DNA from: Aliarcobacter cryaerophilus ATCC 43158
GTDB lineage: Bacteria > Campylobacterota > Campylobacteria > Campylobacterales > Arcobacteraceae
DNA length: 64,000 bases
Reading direction: 5' to 3'
Assembly: GCF_003660105.1 (NCBI RefSeq)
Contig: NZ_CP032823.1
Span: 1,426,001-1,490,000 of the forward strand
This document shows, piece after piece, positions 45,304 to 62,309 of the stretch; positions within the stretch are counted from its first letter, which is position 1; every line of letters starts with the position of its first letter. The notes beneath the pieces were generated by a model. The model had not been told where the DNA came from, did not search any database, and saw only the letters and a list, made by a program, of their open reading frames with translations. The position numbers and the translations under genes were made by a program.

Positions 45304-45377
45304 TTTTATTTATTTTTTAACTATCCCTTAATTCAAATCTAGCTATTATTAATTTTTATATTTTAAGGTTGAAAAAA

Positions 45378-46961
45378 TTGCTAAAAGCTAAAAGTCTATA
45401 TCATTTAATTGTTTACAGTATATTTTTTATTATTATTTTAATATCTTTTTTTACTTTTATTATTATAAACAATGCACATGAAGAACTTCAAGAAAAGATA
45501 ACTACACTAAAAGAAGATTATACTAGTAATCAAAAAGCTTTACTTAAAAACCATGTAAACTATGTTATTAAATTTATTGATTACTACTATTTAGAAAATA
45601 AAGATAAATTTGATGAAAAAACTATACAAAAAAATCTTATTTTGGCTTTAAATCACTTAAATCTTAGCTCAAATCCAAATGAGTACATCTTTATTTTTGA
45701 TTTCAACGGAACTTTAATAGATAATTCAAATGACAAGCAAGAAATTGGTAAAAACTTTTTAAATCATCAAGACTTTAAAGGTAAAAATGTTTTAAAAGAG
45801 CTAATAGAAGTTTCAAAAATTAGTGATGGAGGATTTGTAAACTATTTTTGGTCCAAACCTAGTTTAACAAAAGAGACAAACAAAATATCTTATGTTCAAT
45901 CCTATGATAAATGGAACTGGACAATTGGAAAAGGAGTATATTTAGATGAGATTGATAGATTAATTAAACAAAAGGAAGAAGAGTACAGTAGCAAAATATC
46001 AAACTATACATTACAAATAACTTCTTTAACTATTTTACTTATTTTATACTCTATATTTATCTATAAAAATGCTACTATATTAATAGTAAATGATGTAAAA
46101 GAGATAGGTAAATATTTTAAAGAATCAGAAGAAAAAAATGAGCCAATCAATCAAAATAGAATTATTTTGGGAGAGTTTAAAATTATTGCAAATTATGCAA
46201 ATGACACTATGACAAGTATAAAATTGAAAAGCTCTATGCTTGAAGAGCTAAACAAAAATCTAGAAATAAAAGTAAATGAAAAAACAAAAGAATTATCAAA
46301 CTTAGTAGAATCTCAAAAGCAGTTTCTAAAAAATTCCGTACATGAAATAAACACTCCTTTAGCAATTATACGAACAAATATTGATCTGCTTAAAATGAAA
46401 ATTCCTGAAAATAAATATATCACAAATATTGAATCTGGATCAAAAACTATTCAATATATTTATGATGATTTATCTTATCTTATAAAAAAAGATAGGGTTT
46501 TATATGAGAAAGAGTATTTAGAATTTTCAGAAATTCTAAAAAGTAGATTAGATTTTTTTGAAGAGATTGTAAAATCAAACTCTTTATATTTTATAAAAAA
46601 TATTGAAGATGATGTTTATTTAAAATTTAACTCTGTAGAGCTTCAAAGAGTAATAGACAACAATATATCAAATGCTGTAAAATACTCATTTAGCAAATCA
46701 GCAATTCATATAAAATTATATTATCTAAACGACAATGAAATAGAGTTTAGTGTAACAACAAACTCAAAAATAATAGAAGATACAAATAAGATATTTGAAG
46801 ATTTTTATAGAGAAAATAAAGCTCGAGGTGGCTTTGGATTAGGATTGAAAATTGTAAAAGAGATTTGTGATAAAAATTTAGTTACAATAGAAATTTTATC
46901 AGACAAAAAAGAGACAAAATTTACTTACAGGTTTAAAATAAATGAAAATACTACTTCTTGA
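45378..46961 (+). CDS. Sensor histidine kinase with Cache domain
   Basis: The protein has a membrane helix (about 10-33), a periplasmic Cache domain (about 40-200, with NEYIFIFDFNGTLIDN and KWNWTIGKGVYLDEID), a second helix (about 210-230), a coiled linker, a phospho-acceptor His in NSVHEINTPLA (about residue 322) and an ATPase domain with NNISNAVKYS and GGFGLGLKIV. There is no ATG: TTG at 45378 has AAGG 9 bases upstream, while TTG at 45369 abuts it, so I prefer 45378 (527 residues). Its end overlaps the response regulator by 20 bases. It faces a symporter cluster and probably senses a small organic acid. Confidence 0.9.
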   Translation: MLKAKSLYHLIVYSIFFIIILISFFTFIIINNAHEELQEKITTLKEDYTSNQKALLKNHVNYVIKFIDYYYLENKDKFDEKTIQKNLILALNHLNLSSNPNEYIFIFDFNGTLIDNSNDKQEIGKNFLNHQDFKGKNVLKELIEVSKISDGGFVNYFWSKPSLTKETNKISYVQSYDKWNWTIGKGVYLDEIDRLIKQKEEEYSSKISNYTLQITSLTILLILYSIFIYKNATILIVNDVKEIGKYFKESEEKNEPINQNRIILGEFKIIANYANDTMTSIKLKSSMLEELNKNLEIKVNEKTKELSNLVESQKQFLKNSVHEINTPLAIIRTNIDLLKMKIPENKYITNIESGSKTIQYIYDDLSYLIKKDRVLYEKEYLEFSEILKSRLDFFEEIVKSNSLYFIKNIEDDVYLKFNSVELQRVIDNNISNAVKYSFSKSAIHIKLYYLNDNEIEFSVTTNSKIIEDTNKIFEDFYRENKARGGFGLGLKIVKEICDKNLVTIEILSDKKETKFTYRFKINENTTS

Positions 46962-47604
46962 AGATGAATTGATGCTAAATAGCGCTATTAGCGAATATTT
47001 AAAGAATATTGGTCATATGGTTGAAAGTTTTTTTGATGGTGCTGAAGTTTTAAAAAGTATTGAAAATGGGTATGATTTATTAATTCTTGATGTAAATGTA
47101 CCAAGTATGGATGGATTTTCTATTTTAAATGAGCTAAACAATAGAAAAATTCATATTCCTACAATTTTTATATCCGCACAAATAGATATTGAAGATATTA
47201 CAAGAGCTTATAATCTAGGGGCTAGAGAATATCTTAAAAAACCTTTTCATCTAGGAGAATTAGGAATAAAAATAAATCAAATTTTAAAAAAAGAGCAAAA
47301 TAATACAACGCATATTAGATTCTCAGAAAACTACTCTTATTCAAAAGACAAACAAACAGTATATTTCAATGGAGAACCTCAAAATCTTACAAAAAAACAG
47401 TTAGAAATTATTCATATTCTAGCTTTAAACATAAATATGATTGTAGATTTTGAAAGATTTAGAGTAGATGTTTGGGATGCTGAAAATATTGACAATCCAA
47501 CAATAAGAGCTGAAATTTCAAGATTAAAAAAATCACTAAAAGAGGATTTTATAAAAAATATTCGTGGTCTTGGATATAAAATAGATAGATATTACTCAGT
47601 ATAA
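46942..47604 (+). CDS. OmpR/PhoB-type response regulator
   Basis: This 220-residue regulator has a receiver domain (about 1-112; acidic pair Glu7/Asp8, phospho-acceptor Asp50 in LILDVNVP, Lys98 in YLKKPFH) and a C-terminal winged-helix DNA-binding domain (about 125-218, with LTKKQLEIIHIL and IRGLGYKID). It is the partner of the Cache kinase, whose gene it overlaps. A pair of 10-base direct repeats with 11-base period upstream of the next gene is a good candidate binding site. Confidence 0.93.
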   Translation: MKILLLEDELMLNSAISEYLKNIGHMVESFFDGAEVLKSIENGYDLLILDVNVPSMDGFSILNELNNRKIHIPTIFISAQIDIEDITRAYNLGAREYLKKPFHLGELGIKINQILKKEQNNTTHIRFSENYSYSKDKQTVYFNGEPQNLTKKQLEIIHILALNINMIVDFERFRVDVWDAENIDNPTIRAEISRLKKSLKEDFIKNIRGLGYKIDRYYSV

Positions 47605-47654: not shown

Positions 47655-47677
47655 TCGCCTTGTTTACAAGGAGAATT

Positions 47678-47935
47678 ATGAAAATCGAAGAACCTAATAT
47701 TAAATTTTTTAGAGAAAAAATAACTCTTATTTTTACTCTTATTTTTTTACTATCAATTTTCTCTTTTGGATTTGGAATAGTTCTTTTTGGCTACTTAAAT
47801 AATTTCAATATTTTTGGAGCTAAATTATCATATTTTATATCTGGACAATTTACAATTTACTTATCTATTTTATTAATATTTATATATCAAAAACAGGTTT
47901 TAAAATTAGAAAAAAAATATGAGAATACCTATTAA
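47678..47935 (+). CDS. DUF4212 small subunit of a sodium:solute symporter
   Basis: The ATG at 47678 has AAGGAG upstream; an upstream in-frame ATG-like start at 47660 lies over the promoter. The 85-residue product has two membrane helices (about 15-38 and 52-75) with the family pattern FGFGIVLFGYLN and FYFISGQ-like FISGQFTIYLSIL. DUF4212 proteins accompany a distinct set of SSS-family symporters (VC_2705 type). It is directly followed by its partner. Confidence 0.9.
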   Translation: MKIEEPNIKFFREKITLIFTLIFLLSIFSFGFGIVLFGYLNNFNIFGAKLSYFISGQFTIYLSILLIFIYQKQVLKLEKKYENTY

Positions 47936-49609
47936 ATGGAACTTCAATCTTTAATATACCTTTTTGTAGGTGTATCATTTACAATATACTTTGGTTTGGC
48001 TCTTTGGACGAAAGCTAGTTCTACAAAAGATTTTTATGTTGCAAATAAATCATTTAATCCAATTTTTAATGGAATTTCTATTGCTGTTGATTTTATTAGT
48101 GCTGCAACATTTATATCTTTGTGTGGAGCTTTTTTAAGTTTTGGATATGATAGTTTTGCTTACATTATTGGGATTACTTCTGGTTTTGTTTTTCTTACAA
48201 TTCTTATAGTTCCTTATCTAAGAAAAATGGAGTGCTTATCTATTCCACTTTTTTTTGAAAAAAAATTTAACTCTAAATTACTCAAAATAACTGCAATACT
48301 TATTGTTGTTTTGGTATCATTTATATATATTTCGGCACAACTAAAAGGCGTAGGAATAATATTTTCAAGAATTTTTCAAATTGATTTATCAACTGCTCTT
48401 CTAATAGGAATGTGCATAACTCTTTTTTATGCTTTTATTGGTGGTATGAAAAATATAGCTTATACACAAATTGCTCAATATATTATTATACTTTTTTCAT
48501 TTATGACACCTATTTTTTTCTTAACTATTGAATTTACGAACTCTTATCTTCCACAATTAGCTATTTTTTCAAAATCCTCAATATATGAAGAGAGATACTT
48601 AATTGAAGTTTTTGAACAAACTTTAAATGATATTGGTTTTAAATCTTTTTCTGACTTTAATATTTTAAATAGTTTATTAATTGCAATATCTTTGAGTTTA
48701 GGGGTTGCTTCTTTACCACATATTCTAATCAAATTTTTCTCAAGTCCTACAGTAAATGATGCAAGAAAATCATCATTTTGGGCATTAGTTTTTATATCTG
48801 TTATTTATACTTCTATCTCATCTTTATTTATTCTTTCTACTTTAAATTTAGTAAAAAATACAAATGGTGTAGAATATGATGCTTTTATAAATAATGAAAT
48901 AGATCAAAATGAGGGGAAATGGTTAAAAACTTGGGAAAAAACGGGTTTAGTAAAATTTGAAGATTTGAATAAAAATAATAAAATAGATTTAAAATATGAA
49001 AATAATATAAGTGAATTATCAATCAATCCAGATGCACTAACACTCTTAACTACAGAAATTGCAAACTTACCAAATTGGGTTATATCTTTAGTTTTAGCAG
49101 GTGCATTAGCCGCAACTTTATCAACAATAACTGGTTTGATTCTAATAATAAAAACCACAATATCTTATGAATTACTAAAAGAAAATTTTAGTAAAAATAG
49201 TATTGTTACTAGAGTTATATTTTCAAAGTTATTGATAGTCTTAATTATAGTTTTAGCAACTTTATTTTATATTCCAAACTATACAATTTTACAAACCGTA
49301 GCTATAGCTTTTACGATATGCACAGCCACACTATTTCCAACTTTAATTTTAGGAATCTTTTATAAAAAAGTAAATAAAATTGGAGCAATTTTTGGTATAG
49401 CTGTTGGACTAATTTTTACACTATCTTATAGTATTTATTTTTTATATATTGATAGTTCAAATAATTACTTTTTTGGTATTAGTAGTGAAGGAATTGGCTC
49501 TATTGGTGCAATTTTGAATATTATCATTACAGTTATAGTTTCAAAAATAACACCAAAAAAAGAAAAAAATATAGAAGAATCAATTGATTTTGTTAAAGTT
49601 TTAAAATAA
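47936..49609 (+). CDS. Sodium:solute symporter, VC_2705-type large subunit
   Basis: This 557-residue member of the SSS (SLC5-like) family has about 13 membrane helices. Characteristic segments include DFYVANKSFNPIFNGISIAVDFISAATF cut into the usual sodium-site pattern, FYAFIGGMKNIAYTQIAQY, LGVASLPHILIKFF and GALAATLSTITGL. A soluble loop (about 305-355) with charged DLNKNNKIDLKYEN is a family insert. The partner is the DUF4212 protein. Acetate or a related carboxylate is the probable substrate by association with ackA/pta, not by sequence proof. Confidence 0.88.
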   Translation: MELQSLIYLFVGVSFTIYFGLALWTKASSTKDFYVANKSFNPIFNGISIAVDFISAATFISLCGAFLSFGYDSFAYIIGITSGFVFLTILIVPYLRKMECLSIPLFFEKKFNSKLLKITAILIVVLVSFIYISAQLKGVGIIFSRIFQIDLSTALLIGMCITLFYAFIGGMKNIAYTQIAQYIIILFSFMTPIFFLTIEFTNSYLPQLAIFSKSSIYEERYLIEVFEQTLNDIGFKSFSDFNILNSLLIAISLSLGVASLPHILIKFFSSPTVNDARKSSFWALVFISVIYTSISSLFILSTLNLVKNTNGVEYDAFINNEIDQNEGKWLKTWEKTGLVKFEDLNKNNKIDLKYENNISELSINPDALTLLTTEIANLPNWVISLVLAGALAATLSTITGLILIIKTTISYELLKENFSKNSIVTRVIFSKLLIVLIIVLATLFYIPNYTILQTVAIAFTICTATLFPTLILGIFYKKVNKIGAIFGIAVGLIFTLSYSIYFLYIDSSNNYFFGISSEGIGSIGAILNIIITVIVSKITPKKEKNIEESIDFVKVLK

Positions 49610-49651: not shown

Positions 49652-51469
49652 ATGAGTATTCAAGATCAAGAGAGTTTTTTATCAAAAACTCACCCATTTG
49701 AGGTTTTAACACCAAGTCAAATGGCCATGTGTATTGAACATATGGATATAGCTTACTATCCAAAAGATACAGTTTTAATAGGTCCAGAAAAAATACCAAA
49801 ATATTTTTTTATTATTATTAAAGGTTCAGTTTTTGAATATTCTCCTGAAAATGTCGTAGTTATGGATTATCAAAGCGAAGATACTTTTGATTCAAATTCA
49901 TTAATTTATGGAAAATGTGAAAATAGTTTTAGAGTAAATGAAGAGCTCATATGCTACGAAATAGAAAAAAAGATTTTTTTAGAGCTAATTGATAAAAATC
50001 AAAAATTTAAAGATTTTTTCTTAAAAGATTTGGTAAATAAAATACGAACTCTTAAAGATAAAGAGAACACTTCTCAATTATCATCTTTTATGATAGCAAA
50101 AGTAAGCGATACTTTAATACACGAAGCTTGTATCGTGAAAAAAGATACAAAATTAATAGATGCTATTGATAAATCAATGAAATATAAAACTTCAACTATT
50201 ATAATAGAAGGTGAAAATAAAGAATATGGAATTATTACAGATTCACTACTTAAAGTAAAAGTTCTTTTAGAAGGGAGAGATTTATCTATCCCTGTTAGCG
50301 ATATTGCTATTTTTCCACTTTTGACTATTAAACAAGATGACTATTTATTTGAAGCTTTGACAATTTTAGTAAAAAGAAATATTAAAAGAGTTGGTGTAGT
50401 TGATAATGATGGAAACATGGTTGGAATTATTGAACAAATAGATATTTTATCGCATTTTGCAAATCATACATATGTTATTGAATCAAAGATAAAAAATGCG
50501 AAAAATATTGAAGATTTAAAAGATGCTAGTAAAGATTTTATAGATATTATTACAAGTCTTCAAACAAAAGGGGTGAAATTACACCATATTTCAAATCTTA
50601 TTGGACAACTAAATACAAAAGTTTATCAAAAAATATTCTCACTAATTCTTCCTTTAGAGTTACAAAAAGATGCTTGTTTATTTGTAATGGGAAGTGAAGG
50701 AAGAAATGAACAAATTATAAAAACAGATCAGGATAATGCTCTAATTGTAAGAGATGGTGTTGATGTTGAACAATACAGACCTTATATGCAAAAAATTACA
50801 GATGCTCTTGTATTTTTAGGTTATCCTCCTTGTGAAGGAAATATAATGGTTTCTAATCCTGATTGGTGTAAATCATATCTAAATTTTAAAAATGATATAT
50901 CAAGATGGGTCGGCACTCAAGATATGAAAAACTTTTTAGATTTAGCTATATTTACAGACTCATTTTCGGTTGCTGGTGATAAACAGATGCTGATTGATTT
51001 AAAAGAGTTTTTATACTCAAAAGTACAAAATGATATTTTTATGGCATATTTTGCAAAATCAACAACAGCATTCGAAACTCCAACAACAATATCTAGTTTT
51101 ATTGGTAAAGAGAATTTTATAAATATTAAAAAAGCTGCAATTTTTCCAATAGTTCATGGAATTAGAAGTTTAGCTTTAAAAGAAAAAATAAAAGAGACAA
51201 CAACCATAAAAAGAATCCAAATTTTAGAGCAAAGAAAAATTTTGGATAAAGATAGAGCTGCTGAATTATTAGAAGCACTTGAAATAGCAAATACTTTAAG
51301 ATTGAGACATCAAATGGAGTTATTACAACAAAACAAACCACTTTCAAATGAGATAGAAACAAATAGCTTAGGAAAAATTGAGAGAGATTTACTAAAAGAA
51401 TCATTTAAAATTGTAAATGATTTCAAAAAAATAATAAGTTATATATTTAAACTAGATAAGATTTATTAA
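49652..51469 (+). CDS. CNMP-CBS-DUF294 nucleotidyltransferase-like regulator, copy 1
   Basis: The 605-residue soluble protein has an N-terminal cyclic-nucleotide-binding-like domain (about 10-120), two CBS domains (about 150-280), a DUF294 nucleotidyltransferase domain with MGSEGRNEQIIKTDQDNAL (about 345-363) and a DUF294 C-terminal helical domain (about 440-600). The GSEGR and DQDNA pattern is that of GlnD-like nucleotidyltransferases. It follows the DUF4212/SSS pair and is followed after one base by an exonuclease. Its target is unknown. Confidence 0.88.
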   Translation: MSIQDQESFLSKTHPFEVLTPSQMAMCIEHMDIAYYPKDTVLIGPEKIPKYFFIIIKGSVFEYSPENVVVMDYQSEDTFDSNSLIYGKCENSFRVNEELICYEIEKKIFLELIDKNQKFKDFFLKDLVNKIRTLKDKENTSQLSSFMIAKVSDTLIHEACIVKKDTKLIDAIDKSMKYKTSTIIIEGENKEYGIITDSLLKVKVLLEGRDLSIPVSDIAIFPLLTIKQDDYLFEALTILVKRNIKRVGVVDNDGNMVGIIEQIDILSHFANHTYVIESKIKNAKNIEDLKDASKDFIDIITSLQTKGVKLHHISNLIGQLNTKVYQKIFSLILPLELQKDACLFVMGSEGRNEQIIKTDQDNALIVRDGVDVEQYRPYMQKITDALVFLGYPPCEGNIMVSNPDWCKSYLNFKNDISRWVGTQDMKNFLDLAIFTDSFSVAGDKQMLIDLKEFLYSKVQNDIFMAYFAKSTTAFETPTTISSFIGKENFINIKKAAIFPIVHGIRSLALKEKIKETTTIKRIQILEQRKILDKDRAAELLEALEIANTLRLRHQMELLQQNKPLSNEIETNSLGKIERDLLKESFKIVNDFKKIISYIFKLDKIY

Positions 51470-51470
51470 G

Positions 51471-52097
51471 ATGTTTAAAAATATTATAAAACAGTGGCAA
51501 AGGAAAAGACTTTTAAATAAAAAATTTGATTTTTTATTTGATGAATATCCACAAGGAGAATATATAAGTTTAGACTGTGAAACTACAGGTTTAAACCCTA
51601 AAAAAGATGAGATTTTATCTATTGGTGCAGTTTTAATAAAAGATAATAAAATTTTAATGAGAAAAACATTTAATATATTTGTAAAACCATCAAAAAATAT
51701 AAATCCTGAATCTATAAAAATTCATCTTCTAAGAGAGATAGATTTACAAAATGCTATTGAACCTGATGTTGCCATATATAAACTTCTTGATTTTATTGGT
51801 TCAAGACCAATAGTTGGCTACTATATAGATTTTGATATGGAAATGATTTCAAAATATACAAAAAAATTAATAGGTATAAAACTTCCAAATGAAAGAGTTG
51901 AAGTATCATCAATATATTACGATATAAAAAAGACAAAAGACAACTACGGATTTATAGATTTAAAGTTTGATACTATTATGACTTTTCTTGATATTCCAGT
52001 TTTGGGAAAACATGATGCTTTAAATGATGCAATAATGACTTCTATGATATTCTTAAAACTAAAAAATCTCGCAAAACAGAAAAAAATTAACTTTTAG
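51471..52097 (+). CDS. DEDD-type 3'-5' exonuclease, copy 1
   Basis: This 208-residue protein is a DnaQ-family exonuclease. Exo I motif LDCETTGLNP (about 33-42), Exo II VGYYIDFDMEMI, and Exo III GKHDALNDAIMT with His and Asp give the DEDDh catalytic set. The N-terminus resembles a short basic helix. It lies 1 base after the DUF294 gene and ends in a strong hairpin. Its nucleic-acid target is unknown; it is not the DNA polymerase epsilon subunit by context. Confidence 0.88.
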   Translation: MFKNIIKQWQRKRLLNKKFDFLFDEYPQGEYISLDCETTGLNPKKDEILSIGAVLIKDNKILMRKTFNIFVKPSKNINPESIKIHLLREIDLQNAIEPDVAIYKLLDFIGSRPIVGYYIDFDMEMISKYTKKLIGIKLPNERVEVSSIYYDIKKTKDNYGFIDLKFDTIMTFLDIPVLGKHDALNDAIMTSMIFLKLKNLAKQKKINF

Positions 52098-52122
52098 AAA
52101 TGCTATAAAATAGTATTTCTAA
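52094..52122 (+). terminator. Terminator after the first exonuclease gene
   Basis: A 13-base-pair stem with one G-T pair (52094-52106 with 52110-52122) has a 3-base loop and is followed by TCTTTTTA. It overlaps the exonuclease stop codon. Confidence 0.75.
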
Positions 52123-52218
52123 TCTTTTTAAACCTTTTTTTCAAATCTTTTTTTAAATGCTATGCTTTTGCAACTAAAATATTTTACTATTTCAACTAAT
52201 CTTATTTTAGGAGAAAAA

Positions 52219-52530
52219 ATGGATAACAAATTAGTAGAAAGGATTAAAGCTAATCCTAAATACCATGAACTTGTTTCAAAAAGAAGTTCATTCGCTATTA
52301 AATTAGCTATTTTCATGCTAGTAGTTTACTATGGTTTCATATTAACTATTGCATTTAACAAAGAGTTTTTTGCTACAAAAATAGGTGAAACTATGACAGT
52401 TGCATTCCCTATAGGCTTTGCAATTATTGTAATAGCATTTATAACAACTTTAATTTATGTTGTTAGAGCAAATGGTGAGTTTGAGAACTTAACTAATGAT
52501 ATTAAAAATGATGTGAAGGATATATTATAA
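52219..52530 (+). CDS. DUF485 small membrane partner of ActP, copy 1
   Basis: The ATG at 52219 has AGGAG upstream; the upstream in-frame codon at 52162 has no support. The 103-residue product has two membrane helices (about 23-46 and 60-85) in the DUF485/YjcH pattern ([41 protein letters not shown]). YjcH partners ActP in E. coli. It overlaps the symporter gene by one base (TAATG). It is about 65 percent identical, by eye, to the second copy at 54405. Confidence 0.9.
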
Positions 52531-54176
52531 TGTTGAAAATAATTACTTTATTAGGTTTATCATCATTAGCACTATTTGCAGATGATGCTAAAAGTAGTAT
52601 AAATATGGAAGCTATGTTAATGTTCTTTGCATTTATTATAGGTACTATGGGTATTACAAAATGGGCTGCTAGTAAAACAAAATCTGCTTCAGATTTCTAT
52701 ACAGCAGGTGGAGGAATTACAGGTTTCCAAAATGGTCTAGCAATTGCTGGAGATTATATGTCTGCTGCTTCTTTCATTGGTATTTCGGGTATGATTTATC
52801 TAAATGGTTTTGATGGTATTATTTATGCTATCGGATTTTTAGTTGGTTGGCCAATCATTCTTTTCTTAATGGCTGAAAAATTAAGAAACTTAGGTAAGTT
52901 TAACTTTACTGATATTGCTGCTTACAGACTTGATGAAAAAAGAATAAGAATTCTTGCTGCTTGTGGTTCTTTAACAGTTGTTACTTTCTACTTAATTGCT
53001 CAAATGGTTGGAGCTGGAAAACTAATCGAAGTTTTATTCCATATTCCATATCACTTTGCAGTTGTAATTGTTGGTGCATTAATGATTATATATGTAACAT
53101 TTGGTGGTATGCTTGCTACTACTTGGGTACAAATTATTAAAGCTGTACTTTTACTAGGTGGAGTTACAATTATGGCTCTTTTAGTTCTAGCTACAACTGG
53201 GATTAACTTCTCTTTTGCAAACTTAGCTGAAACTGCTGTTAATTTACATGCTAAAAAAGATGCTATTTTGGCACCAGGTTCATTTGTATCTGATCCAATT
53301 GCTTCTATTTCACTAGGACTTGCTTTAATGCTTGGAACTGCTGGATTACCTCATATTCTTATGAGATTCTTTACAGTTGGAAATGCAAAAGAAGCTAGAA
53401 AATCTGTTGTTTATGCAACTGGATTTATTGGTTACTTCTATTTATTAATAGCTGTTGTTGGTCTTGGTGGAATTGTTTACCTAATGGATCCAAATGTTAA
53501 TAGTGCTTATTTAGATGCTGCTGGTAAATTAATCGGTGGAAATAATATGGCTGCTGTTCACTTAGCTCAAGCTACTGGTGGATCTATTTTCTTAGGATTT
53601 ATATCTGCTGTTGCATTTGCTACAATTCTAGCGGTTGTTGCTGGTCTTGCACTTGCTGCTTCTAATTTAATTGCACATGATTTATATGCAATCGTTATTA
53701 GAAAAGGTCAAGCTACTGATGCTGAAGAGATGAAAGTTTCAAAAAGAACAGTTATTGTAATTGGTATAGTTGCAGTTCTTTTAGGATTTGCATTTGAAAA
53801 TCAAAATATTGCGTTTATGGTTGGACTTGCGTTTGCTGTTGCAGCATCTGCAAACTTCCCAATATTAATTTTATCAATCTATTGGTCAAAATTAACAACA
53901 AGAGGTGCATTTATAGGTGGATTTATAGGTTTACTAACAGCTGTTATTCTAGTTGTACTAAGTAAAACTGTATGGGTTGATATATTTGGATTTGGAAGTG
54001 CGATATTCCCATGGACACATCCTGCACTATTCTCTGTATCTGCTGCATTTATTGGTATTTGGTTCTTCTCAATTACTGATAGCTCAGAAAGAGCAAGTGA
54101 AGACAAATCAGGATTTGAAGCTCAACAAATTAGAGGTGAAACTGGTATTGGTTCTGACGGAGCTGTTTCTCACTAA
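52530..54176 (+). CDS. actP: Cation/acetate symporter ActP-like, copy 1
   Basis: This 548-residue SSS-family symporter has about 13 membrane helices and an N-terminal cleavable-type segment (LFA-DD). Typical ActP stretches are present: [21 protein letters not shown] cut in two by helices, [30 protein letters not shown] and [13 protein letters not shown]. It imports acetate and glycolate in E. coli. It pairs with DUF485 upstream and ends in a hairpin. The next genes encode a second such pair. Confidence 0.92.
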
Positions 54177-54180
54177 AACA

Positions 54181-54210
54181 ATTACTAAAGAGAGAAATCT
54201 CTTTAGTAAT
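54181..54210 (+). terminator. Hairpin after the first ActP gene
   Basis: A perfect 13-base-pair stem (54181-54193 with 54198-54210) with GAAA loop follows the stop by 4 bases. There is no T-run after it, so it may be a processing or stabilising element. Confidence 0.6.
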
Positions 54211-54299
54211 AACTTAATAATGACTTAATAATTATAATTAATTGTAATAATTAATATATTGTTTTTTGTTACAATTCTACATTTATTCTGAAATTTCTA

Positions 54300-54348
54300 T
54301 ATAATTTCTATCAACAAATCAATCAAAATATAAATTTATTTGTATAAT
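54300..54348 (+). promoter_or_regulatory. Candidate promoters before the second DUF485-ActP pair
   Basis: Two exact TATAAT boxes lie at 54300-54305 and 54343-54348 in the 228-base gap before the DUF485 gene at 54405. A TTTTTTGTTAC at 54262-54272 resembles one copy of the direct repeat upstream of the DUF4212 gene, though the second copy is missing. The second ActP pair probably has its own transcript. Confidence 0.45.
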
Positions 54349-54404
54349 CCATTACTTTATCTATCATTTAGATAAAAAATAAAAAAGTCGCAGGAGAATA
54401 AGGT

Positions 54405-54722
54405 ATGGATGAAAAATTGGTTGCAAAAATAGAAGCCAATCCTAAATATCAAGAGCTAGTTTCAAAAAGAAACTCTTTAGCTTTAAAATTAGGAATATTT
54501 GTTTTGATAATGTTTTACTCATTTATCACAATAGTTGCATTTAACAAAGATTTGTTTGCAATAAAAGTAGCGGAAGGTTATATAACAACTATTGCATTTC
54601 CTATTGCATTAGCAATTTTAGTTATTAGCTTTTTAACAACACTAGTTTATGTTAGAAAAGCAAATGGTGAATTTGATGATCTTACAAATCAGATTAAAAG
54701 AGATGTAAGGGAGTTTTTATGA
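54405..54722 (+). CDS. DUF485 small membrane partner of ActP, copy 2
   Basis: The 105-residue product is a paralogue of the DUF485 protein at 52219, with the same start ([13 protein letters not shown]), two helices and end ([16 protein letters not shown]). AGGAG precedes the ATG. It overlaps the next symporter by 4 bases (ATGA). Confidence 0.9.
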
Positions 54723-56365
54723 TTAGAGTATTAACTTTATTATTTTTTACTTCACTTACACTTTTTGCTGCTGGTGATGCAACATTTGAAGGAAAAAGAG
54801 AACTTAATATACCTGCAGTTGCTATGTTTATGGTATTTATACTTGGCACACTAGGAATTACATATTGGGCGGCTAAAAGAACAAAATCTGCTAGTGATTT
54901 TTACACTGCGGGTGGAGGAATAACTGGTTTCCAAAATGGTTTAGCAATTGCTGGTGATTATATGAGTGCAGCAGCATTTTTGGGAGTTTCTGGGCTTATT
55001 TATATGAATGGATATGATGGAATTATATATGCTGTATCTTTCTTAGTTGGTTGGCCTGTAATTTTGTTTTTTATGGCTGAAAAATTAAGAAACTTAGGTA
55101 AATTTACATTTGCTGATATTGCTGCATATAGATTGGCACAAAAAGAGATTAGAACTTTGGCTGCATTTGGTTCTTTATCTGTTGTTATTTTATATCTAAT
55201 TGCACAGATGGTTGGTGCTGGAAAACTTATTCAAATACTATTTGGTATGGAATATGAATATGCTGTATTTATGGTTGGAGCACTAATGATTATTTATGTA
55301 ACATTTGGTGGAATGCTTGCAACTACTTGGGTACAAATTATTAAAGCAGTTCTTCTTCTATCTGGTGTTTCATTTATGGCTATTATGGTTTTATGGCACT
55401 TTGGTTTTAATTTTGAATCATTAGCTCAAACTGCTGTAAATAATCATGCAAAAGGTGAAGAGATTTTAAAACCAGGTGGTTTTTTAAGTGATCCAGTATC
55501 TGCTATCTCTTTAGGTATGGCTTTAATGCTTGGAACTGCAGGTCTTCCTCACGTTTTAATGAGATTCTTTACAGTTGGAAATGCAAAAGAAGCTAGAAAA
55601 TCTGTTGTTTATGCTACTGGATTTGTTGCATACTTTTGGGTAATTATTTCTATCGTTGGACTTGGAGCAATTGCATTTTTAAATAGTGCAGAAGGTGCTC
55701 AATATTTTGTAGATGGAAAACTATTTGGTGGATCTAATATGGCATCAGTTCACCTTTCACACATGCTTGGTGGAAATGCTTTCTTAGGATTTATTTCAGC
55801 TGTTGCATTTGCTACTATTTTGGCCGTTGTTTCTGGACTTACTCTTGCAGGTGCTAGTGCAATTTCACATGACATTTATGCAAATGTTATAAATCCAAAT
55901 GCAAGTGATGAAAAAGTTGTAAAAATTTCAAAAATAACTGTTATAATTGTAGGTATTATTGGAGTTACACTTGGAATTGCATTTGAGTCTCAAAATATTG
56001 CATATATGGTTGGACTTGCTTTTGGAATCGCTGCAAGTGCAAATTTCCCAATACTATTTTTATCAATTTATTGGTCAAAATTAACAACAAGAGGTGCATT
56101 TATTGGTGGATTTATGGGATTAATTACAGCAGTTTCTCTAGTAATTTTAGGTCCAAATGTTTGGGTACAAATTTTAGGAAATGAAAAAGCTATTTTCCCT
56201 TATGCTCACCCTGCACTATTCTCTGTTACAGTTGCGTTTATATCAATTTGGTTTTTCTCTATTATTGATAACTCAAAAAGAGCTACTCAAGAAAGAGCTA
56301 TGTTTAGAGCTCAAAATGTTAGAGCAAATACTGGAATTGGTTCAGCTGGAGCGGTTTCACACTAA
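54719..56365 (+). CDS. actP: Cation/acetate symporter ActP-like, copy 2
   Basis: This 548-residue symporter is the same length as copy 1 and highly similar to it, with long identical stretches even at the DNA level (for example around 55570-55610). Family motifs [30 protein letters not shown] and the end IGSAGAVSH are present. The pair with its DUF485 partner is a tandem duplication of the first set; sequence differences in loops suggest it has had time to diverge. Substrate differences are not visible. Confidence 0.92.
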
Positions 56366-56369
56366 AAAT

Positions 56370-56399
56370 ATCAAAAAGAGAATCTCTTCTCTTTTTGAT
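56370..56399 (+). terminator. Hairpin after the second ActP gene
   Basis: A 12-base-pair stem (56370-56381 with 56388-56399), with A-rich left and T-rich right arms, follows the stop codon. It can work as a terminator or attenuator ahead of the second DUF294 gene. Confidence 0.7.
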
Positions 56400-56425
56400 T
56401 TTGCACTACTTTAAATATAGGAGAG

Positions 56426-58267
56426 ATGAGTATGCAAGAGCAAAAAAAATTTATTTCAAATATTCACCCATTTAATAATTTAAATACTTTTGAATTGGAT
56501 GATTTAGTTGAATCTTTAGACATTGTTTATTTCAAAGCAAACTCTATAGTTCAGGCACAAGATAGTAATCCCGAGTTTTTATATTTTGTTTTAAAAGGTT
56601 TAATTCAAGAAATAAATGACGATGAAGTTTTAAGTGTATATTCAAAAGGTGAGATATTTGACTCAGTCTCTTTAATAAAAAATTATAGTAAGAATAGTTT
56701 TGTGGCTATTGAAGAGAGTATCTGTTATGTACTAAAAAAAGATATATTTATGCAGATTTTAAGCTCAAATCAACAACTAGAAAACTATTTTTTTCAATCC
56801 ATTTCAGATAAGTTAAACAATAATATCTTAAATGAAAAAAACAAAGATATGGCAAATATTATGGTTGCAAAAGTTAAAGATGCAAAAGTTCATAAAGCTG
56901 TAATTGTTGATACAAACAAAACAATATTTGAAGCAGCAAAAATAATAAAACAAGAGAAAATACCAACCCTTTTATTAAAAGATGAAAATGGTGAAATGTA
57001 TATTGTAACTGATTCAGATTTTAGACAAAAAGTTATTTTAAATAGAATGGATTATGATGATTTGGTTGTAAAAATTGCTTCTAAAGGATTAATTTATATA
57101 AACGAAGATGATTTTTTATTTAATGCTCAACTTCAAATGGCAAAACATGGATTAAAAAGAGTTGTAGTAAAAAATGATTATGATGAGATTGTTGGAATAC
57201 TTGATCAAATATCTCTTTCATCATTTTTTGCAACAAATACTTTTGCTGTTTCAAATCAAATCATTAATGCCGAAACTTTAGATGAGCTAAAAGAGGCTTC
57301 ACTATCATTTATAAAAATTATTAAATCACTAAATGCAAAAGGTGTAAAAATAGAGTTTATATCAAAATTAATAAATCAATTAAATAAAAAACTACTTGAT
57401 AAACTATATAAACTTTTAGCTCCAAAAGAGCTTATTGGAAAATCTTGTTTAGTTGTAATGGGAAGTGAAGGAAGAGCTGAACAGATTTTAAGAACCGACC
57501 AAGACAATGCACTTATTATTTCAGATGATTGTAAAATTAGTGAAGAAAAACTTAGGGAGTTTACTCATCTTTTTACTGAAACTTTAGTTACTTTTGGATT
57601 TCCTAGATGTGAAGGAAATATAATGGTTTCAAATCCATATTGGTGCAGATCTCAAAGTGATTTTAAAGAGCTTATTTATGAATGGGTAAATAATCCAAGT
57701 GGTGATAACTTTATGAATATTGCAATATTTTATGATGCTCTTTGTGTATCTGGTGATATTGAGATGATTAAAGAGTTGAAAAATTACCTATTTAAAATCT
57801 CTTCAAACTCTCAAAGCTTTTATACAAATTTTGCAAGAATCATAAATAGTTTTGATGTACCTTTAGGATTTTTTGATGGTTTTGTTTTTAATAGTAAAGA
57901 TGAAAAACATAAAGATGAAATTGATATAAAAAGAGGTGGAATTTTTATAATTGTTCAAGGAATTAGGTCTCTAAGTATTCAAAATAGAGTTCTAAATACA
58001 AATACAATAAAAAGGATAAATAGTTTAAAAGAGTTAAAAATTTTAGATGATGAGAGTGCAAAAGAGTTAATTATGGCATTTAATATTTTAAATAGTCTAA
58101 AACTAAAAGCTAGTTTAGAAAAACTTGATAAAAAAGAGAAGATTGATAATTTTGTAAATCCAAATAGATTAACCATTATGGAAAAGGATTTACTAAAAGA
58201 GTCTTTTAAAATAGTAAATAAGCTAAAGAAAAAGTTAGAAAATCACTTTAAGCTTAACTATGTTTAA
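56426..58267 (+). CDS. CNMP-CBS-DUF294 nucleotidyltransferase-like regulator, copy 2
   Basis: The 613-residue protein repeats the layout of copy 1: CNMP-like domain (about 10-125), CBS pair (about 150-285), nucleotidyltransferase motif MGSEGRAEQILRTDQDNAL (about 350-368) and the DUF294 C-terminal region. ATGs at 56426 and 56432 are both possible: GGAG spacing favours 56432, alignment with copy 1 (MSIQDQ/MSMQEQ) favours 56426. It overlaps the exonuclease gene by 8 bases. It is a diverged paralogue, not a recent copy. Confidence 0.88.
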   Translation: MSMQEQKKFISNIHPFNNLNTFELDDLVESLDIVYFKANSIVQAQDSNPEFLYFVLKGLIQEINDDEVLSVYSKGEIFDSVSLIKNYSKNSFVAIEESICYVLKKDIFMQILSSNQQLENYFFQSISDKLNNNILNEKNKDMANIMVAKVKDAKVHKAVIVDTNKTIFEAAKIIKQEKIPTLLLKDENGEMYIVTDSDFRQKVILNRMDYDDLVVKIASKGLIYINEDDFLFNAQLQMAKHGLKRVVVKNDYDEIVGILDQISLSSFFATNTFAVSNQIINAETLDELKEASLSFIKIIKSLNAKGVKIEFISKLINQLNKKLLDKLYKLLAPKELIGKSCLVVMGSEGRAEQILRTDQDNALIISDDCKISEEKLREFTHLFTETLVTFGFPRCEGNIMVSNPYWCRSQSDFKELIYEWVNNPSGDNFMNIAIFYDALCVSGDIEMIKELKNYLFKISSNSQSFYTNFARIINSFDVPLGFFDGFVFNSKDEKHKDEIDIKRGGIFIIVQGIRSLSIQNRVLNTNTIKRINSLKELKILDDESAKELIMAFNILNSLKLKASLEKLDKKEKIDNFVNPNRLTIMEKDLLKESFKIVNKLKKKLENHFKLNYV

Positions 58268-58883
58268 AAATATTTCAAATTACTTTAATAAAAAAAGTTT
58301 AAAAGACAAAAAATATAGTTTTTTGTTTGATAAAACTATACAAAATGAGTATGTATGTTTTGATTGTGAAACAACTGGATTAAATCCGAAAATCGATGAT
58401 ATTATATCTATTGGTGCTGTTATTATAAAAAACAACACAATAGTTTCAAGCAAAAAATTTGTAAGATATATAAAACCAAAAAACTCATCTTTAGATGAAA
58501 AATCAATAAAAATACATCACATAAGAGAGTGTGATTTAAAAAATGCTTGTGAAATTGAAGATGTGATTTTAGAGTTCTTAGAGTTTATTGAAAACAGAAC
58601 TTTAGTTGGATATTTTTTAAATTTTGATAAAAATATGATAAATAAATATCTAAAACCAATGATTGGAGTAACTTTACCAAATAGAAGTATAGAAGTATCA
58701 GAAATTTATCATGATTTTAAAATTGAATTAATTCCTCAAAGTTTTGTGGATTTAAAATTCAATTCTATATTAAAAGATTTAGAAATACCACAATTTGGAA
58801 ATCACGACTCATTTAATGATGCAATTATGACAGCTATGATATTTTTAAAATTAAAAAATCATCCATCTGTAAAAATTAAATAA
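58260..58883 (+). CDS. DEDD-type 3'-5' exonuclease, copy 2
   Basis: The 207-residue DnaQ-family exonuclease parallels copy 1: Exo I FDCETTGLNP, Exo II VGYFLNFDKNMI and Exo III GNHDSFNDAIMT. All DEDDh residues are kept. It overlaps the DUF294 gene by 8 bases and lies 3 bases before the CDF gene, so it is coupled on both sides. The fact that the exonuclease follows the DUF294 gene in both copies suggests a functional pair. Confidence 0.88.
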   Translation: MFKNISNYFNKKSLKDKKYSFLFDKTIQNEYVCFDCETTGLNPKIDDIISIGAVIIKNNTIVSSKKFVRYIKPKNSSLDEKSIKIHHIRECDLKNACEIEDVILEFLEFIENRTLVGYFLNFDKNMINKYLKPMIGVTLPNRSIEVSEIYHDFKIELIPQSFVDLKFNSILKDLEIPQFGNHDSFNDAIMTAMIFLKLKNHPSVKIK

Positions 58884-59909: not shown

Positions 59910-61100
59910 ATGTTAGTTTTCGTTTTAAATGCTGGTTCATCATCTCTTAAATATCAGCTAATCGATATAAAATCAAAAGAGCTAAAAGCTAGTGGTTTAG
60001 TTGAAAGAATTGGGATTGATGGGATTTTAAAACATGAAATTGGAGAGAATAAAAAGATTACTTTTGAACTTCCAATTCCTACACACAAAGAAGCAATTGA
60101 ATTGGTTCTTAGAATTCTTACAAATGATGAAACAAAAGTTATAAACTCTATTGATGAGATAAAAGCCATTGGACATAGAGTTGTTCACGGTGGTGAGCAT
60201 TTTAAAGGCTCTGTTATTGTTGATGATGAAGTAATTAGAAAAATAGAGGAGTTAATTCCTCTGGCTCCTTTACACAATCCTGCAAATATTATGGGTGTAA
60301 AAATTTGTAAAGATTTAATGCCAAAAGTTCCAAATGTTGTAACTTTTGATACAGCATTTCATCAAACAATGCCTATGGAAAACTTCTTATATGCCGTTCC
60401 TTATGCTGATTATACAGAACATCACTTAAGAAAATATGGATTTCATGGAACAAGCCACTACTATGTTTCTCAAGAAGCTATTAAGCTTTTAAACAAAAAA
60501 GATAGCAAAGTTATCGTTTGTCACCTTGGAAATGGTTCATCTGTTTGTGCGGTTAAAGATGGAAAATCAATTAGCACTTCTATGGGGCTTACTCCTCTTG
60601 AAGGCTTAGTAATGGGTACAAGAAGTGGTGATATAGATGCTGGTGTTATTCCTTACTTAATGGAGAAAAAAGGTTTAAATCATATTCAAATTCTTGATTA
60701 CCTAAATAAAAAATCAGGAATTCTGGGAGTTTCTGGAGTTAGCTCAGATTTAAGAGAGGTAATAAAAGCTTCTAATGATGGAGATAAAAGATCTAAAATA
60801 GCAATTACAATGCTATGTGATAGAATTAAAAAATATCTTTGCTCTTATGCAGGACTTATGCACGGTGTTGATGCTATTTGCTTTACTGCTGGAATTGGAG
60901 AAAATTCTGATTTAATTAGAGAAAAAGTTTGTGAAGGTCTAGAGTTTATGGGAATTGAAATTGATAAAGATAAAAACTCAAAAAGAGAGAAAGGAAATAG
61001 AGAGATAAATACAAAAAACTCTAAAACTAAAATCTTTGTTATTCCTACAAATGAAGAATTAGTGATTGCAACAGATACTTATAATCTACTAAAAAAGTAA
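59910..61100 (+). CDS. ackA: Acetate kinase, first copy
   Basis: AckA interconverts acetate plus ATP and acetyl phosphate. The 396-residue protein has LNAGSSSLKYQL at the N-terminus, HRVVHGG, FDTAFHQTMP, KYGFHGTSH, HLGNGSS and FTAGIGENS, all typical. AAAGGA precedes the ATG. A terminator follows, so it is probably a separate transcript from pta. A second acetate kinase lies after pta. Confidence 0.96.
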   Translation: MLVFVLNAGSSSLKYQLIDIKSKELKASGLVERIGIDGILKHEIGENKKITFELPIPTHKEAIELVLRILTNDETKVINSIDEIKAIGHRVVHGGEHFKGSVIVDDEVIRKIEELIPLAPLHNPANIMGVKICKDLMPKVPNVVTFDTAFHQTMPMENFLYAVPYADYTEHHLRKYGFHGTSHYYVSQEAIKLLNKKDSKVIVCHLGNGSSVCAVKDGKSISTSMGLTPLEGLVMGTRSGDIDAGVIPYLMEKKGLNHIQILDYLNKKSGILGVSGVSSDLREVIKASNDGDKRSKIAITMLCDRIKKYLCSYAGLMHGVDAICFTAGIGENSDLIREKVCEGLEFMGIEIDKDKNSKREKGNREINTKNSKTKIFVIPTNEELVIATDTYNLLKK

Positions 61101-61114
61101 AAATTTATAAAAAT

Positions 61115-61157
61115 AAAAAGAGCAGACTTGTAGAATTTACTCAAAAATGCTCTTTTT
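61115..61157 (+). terminator. Intrinsic terminator after the first ackA
   Basis: AAAAAGAGCA (61115-61124) pairs with TGCTCTTTTT (61148-61157), followed by GTTTTATTTTTTC. The 23-base loop is long but the T-rich tail is good. Confidence 0.75.
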
Positions 61158-61284
61158 GTTTTATTTTTTCACTTTTTTAAACACTCTCAAAGCCCTCAAA
61201 TATCGCTTTTATTTGCTACTTTAATGCTATTTTTTTTCATTATAGTTTTCGTTATATTTGAAAAAAGAAAGGATTGGTTACATT

Positions 61285-62280
61285 ATGGGTTTAATTGATA
61301 ATATCAAAGAAAAAGCTAAACAAAATTTAAGAACTATAGTTCTTCCTGAATCTGAGGATGAGAGAGTTTTAAAAGCAACTGAAATAGTTTTAAAAGATAA
61401 AACTGCAAAAATTATCCTTATTGGAAATGAAGAAACAATAAAAGCTGATGCTTCAAAATATGGTGCAAATATTTCTGGAGCAACTATTGTTGATCCTTCA
61501 AAATGTGCAAATCTTGATAAATATGTTGATGAATTAGTTGAACTTAGAAAAAGTAAAAATCTTTCAAAAGATGAAGCTAAAAAACTAATGCTTACAGAAC
61601 CTAGATTTTTTGGTTGTATGATGGTAAGACTAGGAGATGCAGATGGATTAGTTGCTGGTTCAAACTCTCCAACTTCTGATGTTTTAAGAGCTGCTATTCA
61701 AGTAATCAAAACAGCACCTGGTATAAATACAGTTTCATCTGCATTTATTATGGAAACAGCTGATGGTAAATTTGGAGATAATGGTCTAATTTTATTTGCA
61801 GATTGTGCTGTTATTCCAGACCCAAATGCTGAACAGTTAGCTGATATTGCTAGTGCAACTGCTGCAACTGCTGCTAGTGTTGTTGGTCTTGAGCCTCGAG
61901 TTGCTATGTTATCTTTTTCTACAAAAGGTAGTGCATCACACCCAATGGTAGATAAAGTTACAACTGCTTGCCAAATACTAAAAGATAGAGATGTAAAATT
62001 TGCATTTGATGGAGAACTTCAAGCTGATGCTGCAATCGTTGCAAGTGTTGGTATTAAAAAAGCTCCTGATTCAAAAGTCGCTGGACATGCAAATATTTTG
62101 GTATTCCCTGATTTACAAGCTGGAAATATTGGATATAAACTTGTACAAAGATTTGCAGGAGCTGAAGCTCATGGACCAATTATTCAAGGTTTAAATAAAC
62201 CTGTAAATGACCTATCAAGAGGTTGTTCAGTTGAAGATATTTCAAACTTAGTAGCTATCACAGCAACTCAAATTAAATAA
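61285..62280 (+). CDS. pta: Phosphate acetyltransferase
   Basis: Pta interconverts acetyl phosphate and acetyl-CoA. I start at the ATG at 61285 (331 residues, the short-form length) and not at the in-frame TTG at 61258. The PTA-domain motifs LPESEDERVLKAT, GLVAGSNSPTSDVLRAA, MLSFSTKGSA and NILVFPDLQAGNIGYKL are present. It lacks the N-terminal DRTGG regulatory region of the long form. It lies 29 bases before the second ackA and is probably cotranscribed with it. Confidence 0.96.
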   Translation: MGLIDNIKEKAKQNLRTIVLPESEDERVLKATEIVLKDKTAKIILIGNEETIKADASKYGANISGATIVDPSKCANLDKYVDELVELRKSKNLSKDEAKKLMLTEPRFFGCMMVRLGDADGLVAGSNSPTSDVLRAAIQVIKTAPGINTVSSAFIMETADGKFGDNGLILFADCAVIPDPNAEQLADIASATAATAASVVGLEPRVAMLSFSTKGSASHPMVDKVTTACQILKDRDVKFAFDGELQADAAIVASVGIKKAPDSKVAGHANILVFPDLQAGNIGYKLVQRFAGAEAHGPIIQGLNKPVNDLSRGCSVEDISNLVAITATQIK

Positions 62281-62309
62281 TAAATTAAATTTCAAAAAAG
62301 GATTAGTAA

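Follow-up and report, generated by a model that had tools for sequence, protein, structure and literature searches.

Why should a nucleotidyltransferase (NTase) of the DUF294 type and a DEDDh exonuclease stand side by side, twice, in a run of solute transporter genes? The question is raised by a locus in a 64,000-nucleotide stretch of the 2.1 Mb genome of Aliarcobacter cryaerophilus ATCC 43158 (contig NZ_CP032823.1, positions 1,426,001 to 1,490,000; hereafter the window, with coordinates counted from its first base). The genes all lie on the + strand, in the order Cache-domain histidine kinase, OmpR-type regulator, DUF4212 protein, VC_2705-type symporter, NTase A, exonuclease A, two successive DUF485-ActP units, NTase B, exonuclease B, cation efflux protein, ackA, pta and ackA (Table 1). 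An earlier inspection (the sequence-only reading) had described two tightly coupled NTase-exonuclease pairs, both with intact active sites, and had proposed that they form a reversible modification switch acting on the symporters. We consider it likely that the NTase and the exonuclease are paired regulators of uptake by sodium/solute symporters (SSS), and the two-enzyme unit is probably an on/off switch for that uptake.

The two pairs were found as described, with the open reading frames (ORFs) where they had been placed, a 1-base gap at the NTase/exonuclease junction of copy A and an 8-base overlap in copy B, and the strong divergence, with 39% identity between the NTases and 53% between the exonucleases. 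In nine Arcobacteraceae-type loci examined the B copies all have the 8-base overlap and the A copies all a 1-base overlap; the 1-base gap of the present A copy is matched at L006, L009 and L011 (we number loci with L and genomes with G). The repeated order of symporter and pair was borne out in part, as copy A trails a single symporter with its small subunit and copy B trails two DUF485-ActP units. The two ActP copies are 68% identical to each other, and the ActP-type and VC_2705-type symporters share only 22%; beyond these three, no SSF protein was found in the genome at E 0.001. The genome likewise has two full-length DUF294 proteins, both at this locus, and a third, weak DUF294 match in an 831-aa frame that is probably GlnD.

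Both NTases have cNMP_binding, CBS, DUF294 and DUF294_C domains in that order and above the Pfam cut-offs (PF00027, PF00571, PF03445, PF10335), and both exonucleases have RNase_T and exceed the 189-bit cut-off of NCBIfam NF006601 (PRK09145). Retention of the two catalytic sets extends well beyond the window: G346, S347, R350, D358 and D360 of the NTase (GSxxR and DxD), together with its D437, are invariant in 61 of 61 aligned sequences, and D35, E37, D123, H182 and D187 of the exonuclease in 51 of 51. These alignments comprise the window's two sequences together with 59 of 80 NTase and 49 of 67 exonuclease rows, hand-picked to thin near-duplicates. A looser form of the NTase motif is present in 80 of 84 gammaproteobacterial ORFs, and one of the misses is a fragment.

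Since the two genes co-occur far beyond close relatives, the claim that they form a unit stands. Among 121 Campylobacterota genomes, strong DUF294 matches (21, in ORFs of 585-652 aa) and exonucleases over the NF006601 cut-off (also 21) are found in the same 17, and each of the 21 exonucleases adjoins an NTase by coordinates; joint occurrence has a Fisher p of 5e-21, among genomes that are related and not independent. Weak DUF294 matches in frames of about 810-875 aa, which we read as GlnD, and exonucleases under the cut-off were excluded from these pair counts. A scan of genome contigs gave 79 loci from the best 80 of at least 590 candidates, a set that is for this reason biased towards near relatives. 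By record title these loci belong to Campylobacterota, Gammaproteobacteria (with the former Betaproteobacteria) and Alphaproteobacteria, and an exonuclease lies directly behind 77 of the 83 NTases with room for one. A less biased sample of 229 gammaproteobacterial genomes has an exonuclease (E 1e-25) in 49, a DUF294 protein (E 1e-12) in 65 and both in 48 (Fisher p 1e-33, again for related, non-independent genomes); only eight of the 49 pass the NF006601 cut-off, so that 'exonuclease' refers in this sample to a wider DEDDh group. Genome G339, counted as having an exonuclease without DUF294, bears a DUF294 fragment at a contig end. Thirty-eight of the 51 gammaproteobacterial exonuclease copies lie within 1.5 kb of a DUF294 gene on the same strand, and by our own profiles an exonuclease is directly downstream of 49 of 81 NTases with room, adjacency being counted on stop positions since the long GC-rich ORFs of the exonucleases overlap the NTase. 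Where no exonuclease trails the NTase, five of 11 genomes checked encode one over the cut-off elsewhere. No NF006601 protein over the cut-off was found in the genomes of L036, L040, L041, L042, L046 and L048; that of L041 has one sub-cut-off match, in a 787-aa frame. A sub-cut-off match at L020 was dropped, as it lies in an 823-aa frame whose N-terminus looks helicase-like by eye. The pairing of NTase and exonuclease is a genuine association, of long standing and wide distribution, and was already known in part from Pseudomonas.

The pair also stands often beside symporters. In the 16 pair-bearing Campylobacterota genomes other than the window's own, an ActP or VC_2705-type symporter is directly upstream of 16 of the 19 pairs, and each of the 17 genomes encodes an SSF protein (E 1e-30 or better). 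In the contig-scan set, 64 of the 80 NTases with room have an SSF symporter as their immediate upstream neighbour (43 ActP and 21 VC_2705), and in Gammaproteobacteria an SSS gene lies within 5 kb of 43 of the 67 NTases having 5 kb on both sides. The DUF485-ActP-NTase-exonuclease cassette occurs on plasmids of Methylocella tundrae, Rhodovulum sp. P5 and Microvirga ossetica, in the last together with acs (four of 41 matching plasmid records were examined). At six gammaproteobacterial loci (L115, L130, L134, L147, L149 and L182) two NTases flank a DUF4212-symporter unit, followed by an exonuclease and acetyl-CoA synthetase. A four-gene cassette of small subunit, SSS symporter, DUF294 NTase and DEDDh exonuclease is conserved across Campylobacterota and Pseudomonadota, and is carried on plasmids as well.

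Phylogenetic comparison ties each lineage of the pair to a type of symporter. Trees were built from 103 of 180 rows, including the window's two, of which 59 are Campylobacterota by record origin; NTases under 560 aa and pairs lacking an exonuclease or a symporter directly upstream were excluded. In the DUF294 tree of the 59 Campylobacterota rows, all 22 VC_2705-linked rows form one clade (Shimodaira-Hasegawa-like approximate likelihood ratio test, SH-aLRT, 99), which includes NTase A and joins the Arcobacteraceae A copies with Sulfurospirillum and Sulfurovum, apart from the Arcobacteraceae B copies; NTase B is among the ActP-linked rows. Symporter type changes once on this tree (minimum 12 and mean 17.9 in 200 shuffles) and twice on the exonuclease tree (shuffle minimum 13), with three and four changes on the 103-row trees. 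NTase and exonuclease distances are correlated at r 0.907 (n=103), the maximum of 999 permutations being 0.233. Linkage alone would also give such agreement, which therefore indicates inheritance as a symporter-linked cassette, not contact between the proteins. Local duplication of the pair was rejected, as the tree separates copies A and B; the sequence-only reading was right that the pair is present twice, but by their sequence relationships the copies are old, separately inherited lineages and not a recent repeat.

In some genomes the two activities are joined in one polypeptide. Seven single-chain proteins (L136, L178 and L219-L223) have RNase_T, CBS, DUF294 and DUF294_C domains, the exonuclease domain occupying the position of the CNMP domain in the window NTases, and both active sites are intact (by reading in L136 and L178, by motif in L219-L223). 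Four of the seven (L136, L220, L221 and L223) lie beside a DUF4212-SSS symporter. Whole-length fusion matches are present in at least six of 349 genomes of a Pseudomonadota sample, a lower bound because three candidates were scored per genome. For the two fused exonucleases run against NCBIfam the best family is PRK07883 (DnaQ-type), not NF006601, so that the same NTase may have recruited an exonuclease on a second occasion. In L109, also a fusion, the exonuclease part is degenerate by reading. The natural fusions and the symporter-linked lineages argue for a joint function of NTase and exonuclease.

The sensor regions are swapped in some relatives. At L139, L140 and L181 the NTase has Cache and PAS sensors in place of the CNMP domain (Cache-PAS-CBS-DUF294) and looks like the output domain of a receptor. 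Long PAS-type exonucleases form a further group: Pfam recognises PAS in L156 and L227 but RNase_T alone in L110 and L112, and L129, L184 and L185 are kin by phmmer; the N-terminus looks hydrophobic in the four sequences viewed. A histidine kinase of one family adjoins the PAS-type exonuclease in five of the six cases found (L110, L112, L129, L156 and L185). This kinase is SLC5-like only by weak matches, of about 30-46 bits to our own symporter profile (L112, L109 and L156) and, in Paracoccus, to SSF at E 4.2e-4, below the Pfam cut-off; Pfam gave no SSF match in L112 or L129. The order at L112 is kinase, PAS-type exonuclease, an NTase lacking CNMP and CBS domains, DUF4212 protein and symporter, and in Paracoccus denitrificans PD1222 it is CBS-NTase, small protein, kinase, response regulator and PAS-exonuclease. 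We also note that at L141:11304-12335 (genome G237) a second NTase has lost its sensor domains and is followed by no exonuclease.

What chemistry might the NTase perform? Its NTase domain matched no solved structure by sequence at E 0.1. In the AlphaFold model of NTase B (predicted local distance difference test, pLDDT, 87.4), residues of about 259-613 match the deadenylylation and adenylylation domains of GlnE, and DrrA, with Z scores of 24.5-26.5, and these are the best NTase folds among the matches listed: GlnE 1v4a (Z 26.5, 320 aligned, root-mean-square deviation (rmsd) 4.1), GlnE 3k7d (Z 25.8, 298 aligned, rmsd 2.9) and DrrA 6yx5 (Z 24.5, 298 aligned, rmsd 3.7). The predicted fold of the NTase module is that of these protein adenylyltransferases, which supports the capacity for nucleotide transfer that had been read from its motifs. 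DUF294_C has been assigned to a HEPN-related Pfam clan alongside domains of the GlnD/GlnE type (PMC3710099; statements on published work here and below refer to the available parts of each paper). Neither NTase copy has a second NTase domain or an HD domain recognised by Pfam.

A canonical cyclic-nucleotide phosphate-binding cassette contains a Glu and Arg motif, and these residues are not conserved in the CNMP domains of the 61 aligned rows; column 80 is mostly A, P, S or T, and an R is present in only five rows at column 90 and 14 at column 91. With the canonical ligand residues absent, sensing of cAMP by this domain was rejected, and the earlier suggestion that it senses a nucleotide was not supported. 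The model of exonuclease B (pLDDT 93.6) matches DnaQ-type exonucleases, and also Cap18 (7t2s, E 1.2e-9) of a cyclic-oligonucleotide-based antiphage signalling system (CBASS) and oligoribonuclease (6rk6, E 6.8e-8). A role in DNA repair is disfavoured by the gene context.

GlnE and GlnD are established cases in which metabolic sensing controls reversible protein nucleotidylation. GlnE has an NTase and an alpha-helical domain of the same fold as the window NTase together with a second NTase domain, and GlnD has an HD hydrolase, whereas the window NTase has one NTase module, with the exonuclease in that place, and its CNMP-like and CBS sensors are unlike those of GlnE and GlnD. DrrA/SidM, an AMPylase, shares the fold; unlike it, the window NTase is in a bacterial metabolic locus, where no Rab target is expected. 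By this comparison the sensor domains (CNMP-like and CBS in the window, and PAS, Cache or an exonuclease domain in relatives) would drive the NTase to attach AMP or UMP to the symporter, to its small subunit or to a protein close by, and this modification would turn uptake off. The exonuclease would antagonise the NTase, most simply by removing the nucleotide and so restoring uptake, in the role that the HD hydrolase has in GlnD or the second NTase domain in GlnE. We think it fairly probable that the NTase performs protein nucleotidylation; that the exonuclease is the direct eraser is proposed only tentatively, and the symporter as the modified protein is inferred. Evenly poised, in our judgement, is the view that the locus is a cluster for uptake of monocarboxylates (acetate or pyruvate) in which each symporter type has its own control pair of writer-eraser kind. 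The complete proposal, of a DEDDh exonuclease acting as a protein de-nucleotidylase opposite a GlnE-like NTase, so that SLC5-family monocarboxylate symporters of Pseudomonadota and Campylobacterota are switched by reversible nucleotidylation and the ActP and VC_2705 types have separate writer-eraser lineages, is speculative and rather doubtful as a whole.

Published genetics of Pseudomonas bears on this proposal. In P. putida KT2440 a CBS protein, PP_0354, and an RNase_T-family exonuclease, PP_0353, are in an operon under MxtR/ErdR, and in PAO1 the homologs adjoin actP and yjcH (PA3232-PA3235; Henriquez et al. 2022, PMC9927547). We take PP_0354 to be the NTase, and from the published architecture and neighbourhood, with a CBS-domain protein followed by an RNase_T-family exonuclease as in the window, we infer that these pairs are kin to those of the window. 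Deletion of PP_0353, unlike that of PP_0354, impairs growth on 20 mM pyruvate, which is delayed and reaches the same final density, and deletion of actP-I, mxtR or erdR likewise impairs growth on pyruvate; at 5 mM acetate, actP-I and PP_0353 are both important according to transposon data cited there (PMC9927547). Both PP_0354 and PFLU5625 are members of the acetate regulon of MxtR/ErdR (CrbS/R) (PMC5715377, PMC8402216), and the NTase of Pseudomonas fluorescens in that regulon has no growth phenotype (Sepulveda and Lupas, PMC5715377). PA3232-PA3235 are up about 16-fold in propionate-grown P. aeruginosa (PMC9765439). If the NTase turns uptake off and the exonuclease turns it on, an exonuclease mutant should mimic a symporter mutant and an NTase mutant should resemble the wild type; the P. 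putida phenotypes fit this assignment (PMC9927547), which is our own reading of them.

Henriquez et al. speculate on mRNA decay as the role of PP_0353 (PMC9927547), and the DnaQ/RNase T-type fold of the exonuclease model would suit an RNase that degrades mRNAs of uptake or of the tricarboxylic acid cycle, with the NTase regulating it or acting separately. We regard this as rather unlikely, for it leaves the adenylyltransferase fold, the symporter-linked lineages and the fusion to an NTase unexplained.

Several observations weigh against a symporter switch. To our knowledge neither a biochemical activity nor a substrate of the pair has been described, nor has any DEDDh exonuclease been reported to take a nucleotide off a protein. 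Association is incomplete: in Gammaproteobacteria 32 of 81 NTases have no exonuclease directly downstream, 11 of the 67 with 5 kb on both sides are near neither an exonuclease nor an SSS gene, and 41 of the 49 exonuclease-bearing genomes have sub-cut-off NF006601 matches only. Five ActP-linked NTases (L036, L040, L041, L046 and L048) are in genomes without an over-cut-off NF006601 protein; these are metagenome-assembled genomes, which may be incomplete, four titled Competibacteraceae or Contendobacter and one unclassified. Three Campylobacterota pairs (L004, L008 and L012) have no ActP or VC_2705-type gene beside them, two of these genomes carrying DUF485-ActP elsewhere (L204 and L205, for L008 and L012). 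Conversely, 83 of 100 SSF-bearing Campylobacterota genomes lack the pair, and the acs-yjcH-actP operon of Escherichia coli K-12 has none beside it. In P. putida, deletion of PP_0354 leaves growth on pyruvate unimpaired, and neither the PP_0353 nor the PP_0354 deletion affects growth on 20 mM acetate (PMC9927547). In P. aeruginosa, PA3233-PA3235 are down 2-fold after propionate addition, and a mutant in the actP homologue grows normally on propionate (PMC9765439).

A switch might also be real and have another target, namely acetyl-CoA synthetase, the acetate kinase pathway or the SLC5-like histidine kinase. Acetyl-CoA synthetase is within 6 kb of 27 of the 67 gammaproteobacterial NTases (identity checked by NCBIfam for two), ackA-pta-ackA is present at the window locus, and in Paracoccus denitrificans PD1222 the NTase and exonuclease bracket the kinase with its weak SSF match, no separate SSF symporter being annotated in the 13 kb of that locus. 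Given how commonly a symporter is directly upstream (64 of 80), and that lineages of the pair track symporter type, we hold another target to be unlikely.

Some CBASS systems combine an NTase with a DEDDh accessory enzyme (Cap18). The matches of the exonuclease model to Cap18 and oligoribonuclease would accordingly suit an NTase that makes a small cyclic or oligonucleotide messenger and an exonuclease that destroys it; this is improbable, as the best NTase folds among the matches listed are GlnE and DrrA and no obvious receiver gene is present among the 25 largest neighbour clusters. Quite improbable, too, is mere co-inheritance in the acetate regulon with no joint function. Membership of PP_0354 and PFLU5625 in that regulon, and the fact that linked genes share a tree by linkage alone, would be expected from it, but not the seven fusions, the single-gene phenotype that PP_0353 shares with actP-I, or the adjacency kept where the pair has no symporter beside it. 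Least probable of all is that the NTase adds nucleotides to RNA 3' ends, such as those of tRNA, which the exonuclease trims: RNA tailing usually works by such a combination of an NTase and a 3'-5' exonuclease, but the C-terminal domain is DUF294_C, which belongs with GlnD/GlnE-type domains, and the link to one transporter family would be unexplained.

Returning to the paired-regulator reading, the pair and its acetate regulon are already known, and what is new relative to the literature searched is the natural fusions, the symporter-linked lineages, the sensor swaps, the predicted adenylyltransferase fold of the NTase module and the reading of the pair as a switch. The domain architecture of the window NTases is that of cNMP-CBS-nucleotidyltransferase proteins, which we take to be COG2905. 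Such proteins were described by Aravind and Koonin in 1999 (as cited in PMC5715377), and regulation by nucleotidylation has been predicted for them (a prediction cited in PMC5715377); the available parts of these accounts do not include the exonuclease partner, the fusions or the symporter-linked lineages found here. PMC9927547, in the parts available, handles PP_0353 and PP_0354 singly and makes no writer-eraser proposal. A literature search covering few subscription journals turned up no publication describing the fusion of an exonuclease to such an NTase or the switching of symporters by nucleotidylation. PP_0353 has a published phenotype without a mechanism, and the name of the NF006601 (PRK09145) model gives no role to a family that is here tied to an NTase and a symporter. 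Were the proposal true, the nucleotidylation of proteins seen with GlnD/GlnE and effector AMPylases would reach membrane transporters as well, and a family of nucleases would act on a kind of substrate new to it.

Table 1. Features of the window and, in the last row, of related loci.
Coordinates	Strand	Feature	Evidence
45369..46961	+	Cache-domain histidine kinase, possible regulator of the locus	domain search
46942..47604	+	OmpR-type response regulator	
47660..47935	+	DUF4212 small symporter subunit, TTG start	PF13937 2.3e-15; TIGR03647 above cut-off
47936..49609	+	VC_2705-type sodium/solute symporter	TIGR03648 518 bits, cut-off 320.75
49652..51469	+	NTase copy A, 605 aa (cNMP-like, CBS, DUF294, DUF294_C)	Pfam; GSEGR and DQD conserved
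51471..52097	+	DEDDh exonuclease copy A, 208 aa	NF006601 270.5 bits; D/E/D/H/D invariant
52219..52530	+	DUF485 small subunit a	PF04341 1.1e-30; start inferred from preceding GGAG (longest ORF begins at 52162)
52530..54176	+	ActP-type symporter a	NF006903 above cut-off
54405..54722	+	DUF485 small subunit b	PF04341 1.8e-26
54719..56365	+	ActP-type symporter b	NF006903 above cut-off
56426..58267	+	NTase copy B, 613 aa (cNMP-like, CBS, DUF294, DUF294_C)	Pfam; AlphaFold model
58260..58883	+	DEDDh exonuclease copy B, 207 aa	NF006601 258.8 bits; DnaQ-type model fold
59910..63509	+	ackA, pta, ackA (acetate activation)	TIGR00016, TIGR00651 above cut-off
L112:4974-13422, L156:16141-19901, L227:5668-12568		PAS-type DEDDh exonuclease fusions by SLC5-like kinases	

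Of 16 Campylobacterota loci, 10 have close to the pair a kinase and regulator similar to those at the head of this locus, which suggests that they are an alternative to CrbS/R in this phylum. Directly behind the cluster, a single phosphotransacetylase gene is flanked by two acetate kinase genes, to which the sequence-only reading had not referred. Most of the ActP and VC_2705-type symporters compared (including those of L126, L144 and L169) have a C-terminal tail ending in G-x-G...H, which the window's VC_2705-type symporter lacks; the tail was considered as the modified site and rejected, being present in E. coli and in Campylobacterota ActP proteins without the pair. Finally, a stem-loop of 13 pairs with an AAAGAGA/TCTCTTT-like core lies directly past each actP, at 54181-54210 and 56370-56399; the two are similar, were flagged on the minus strand and may attenuate transcription between the symporters and the genes downstream.

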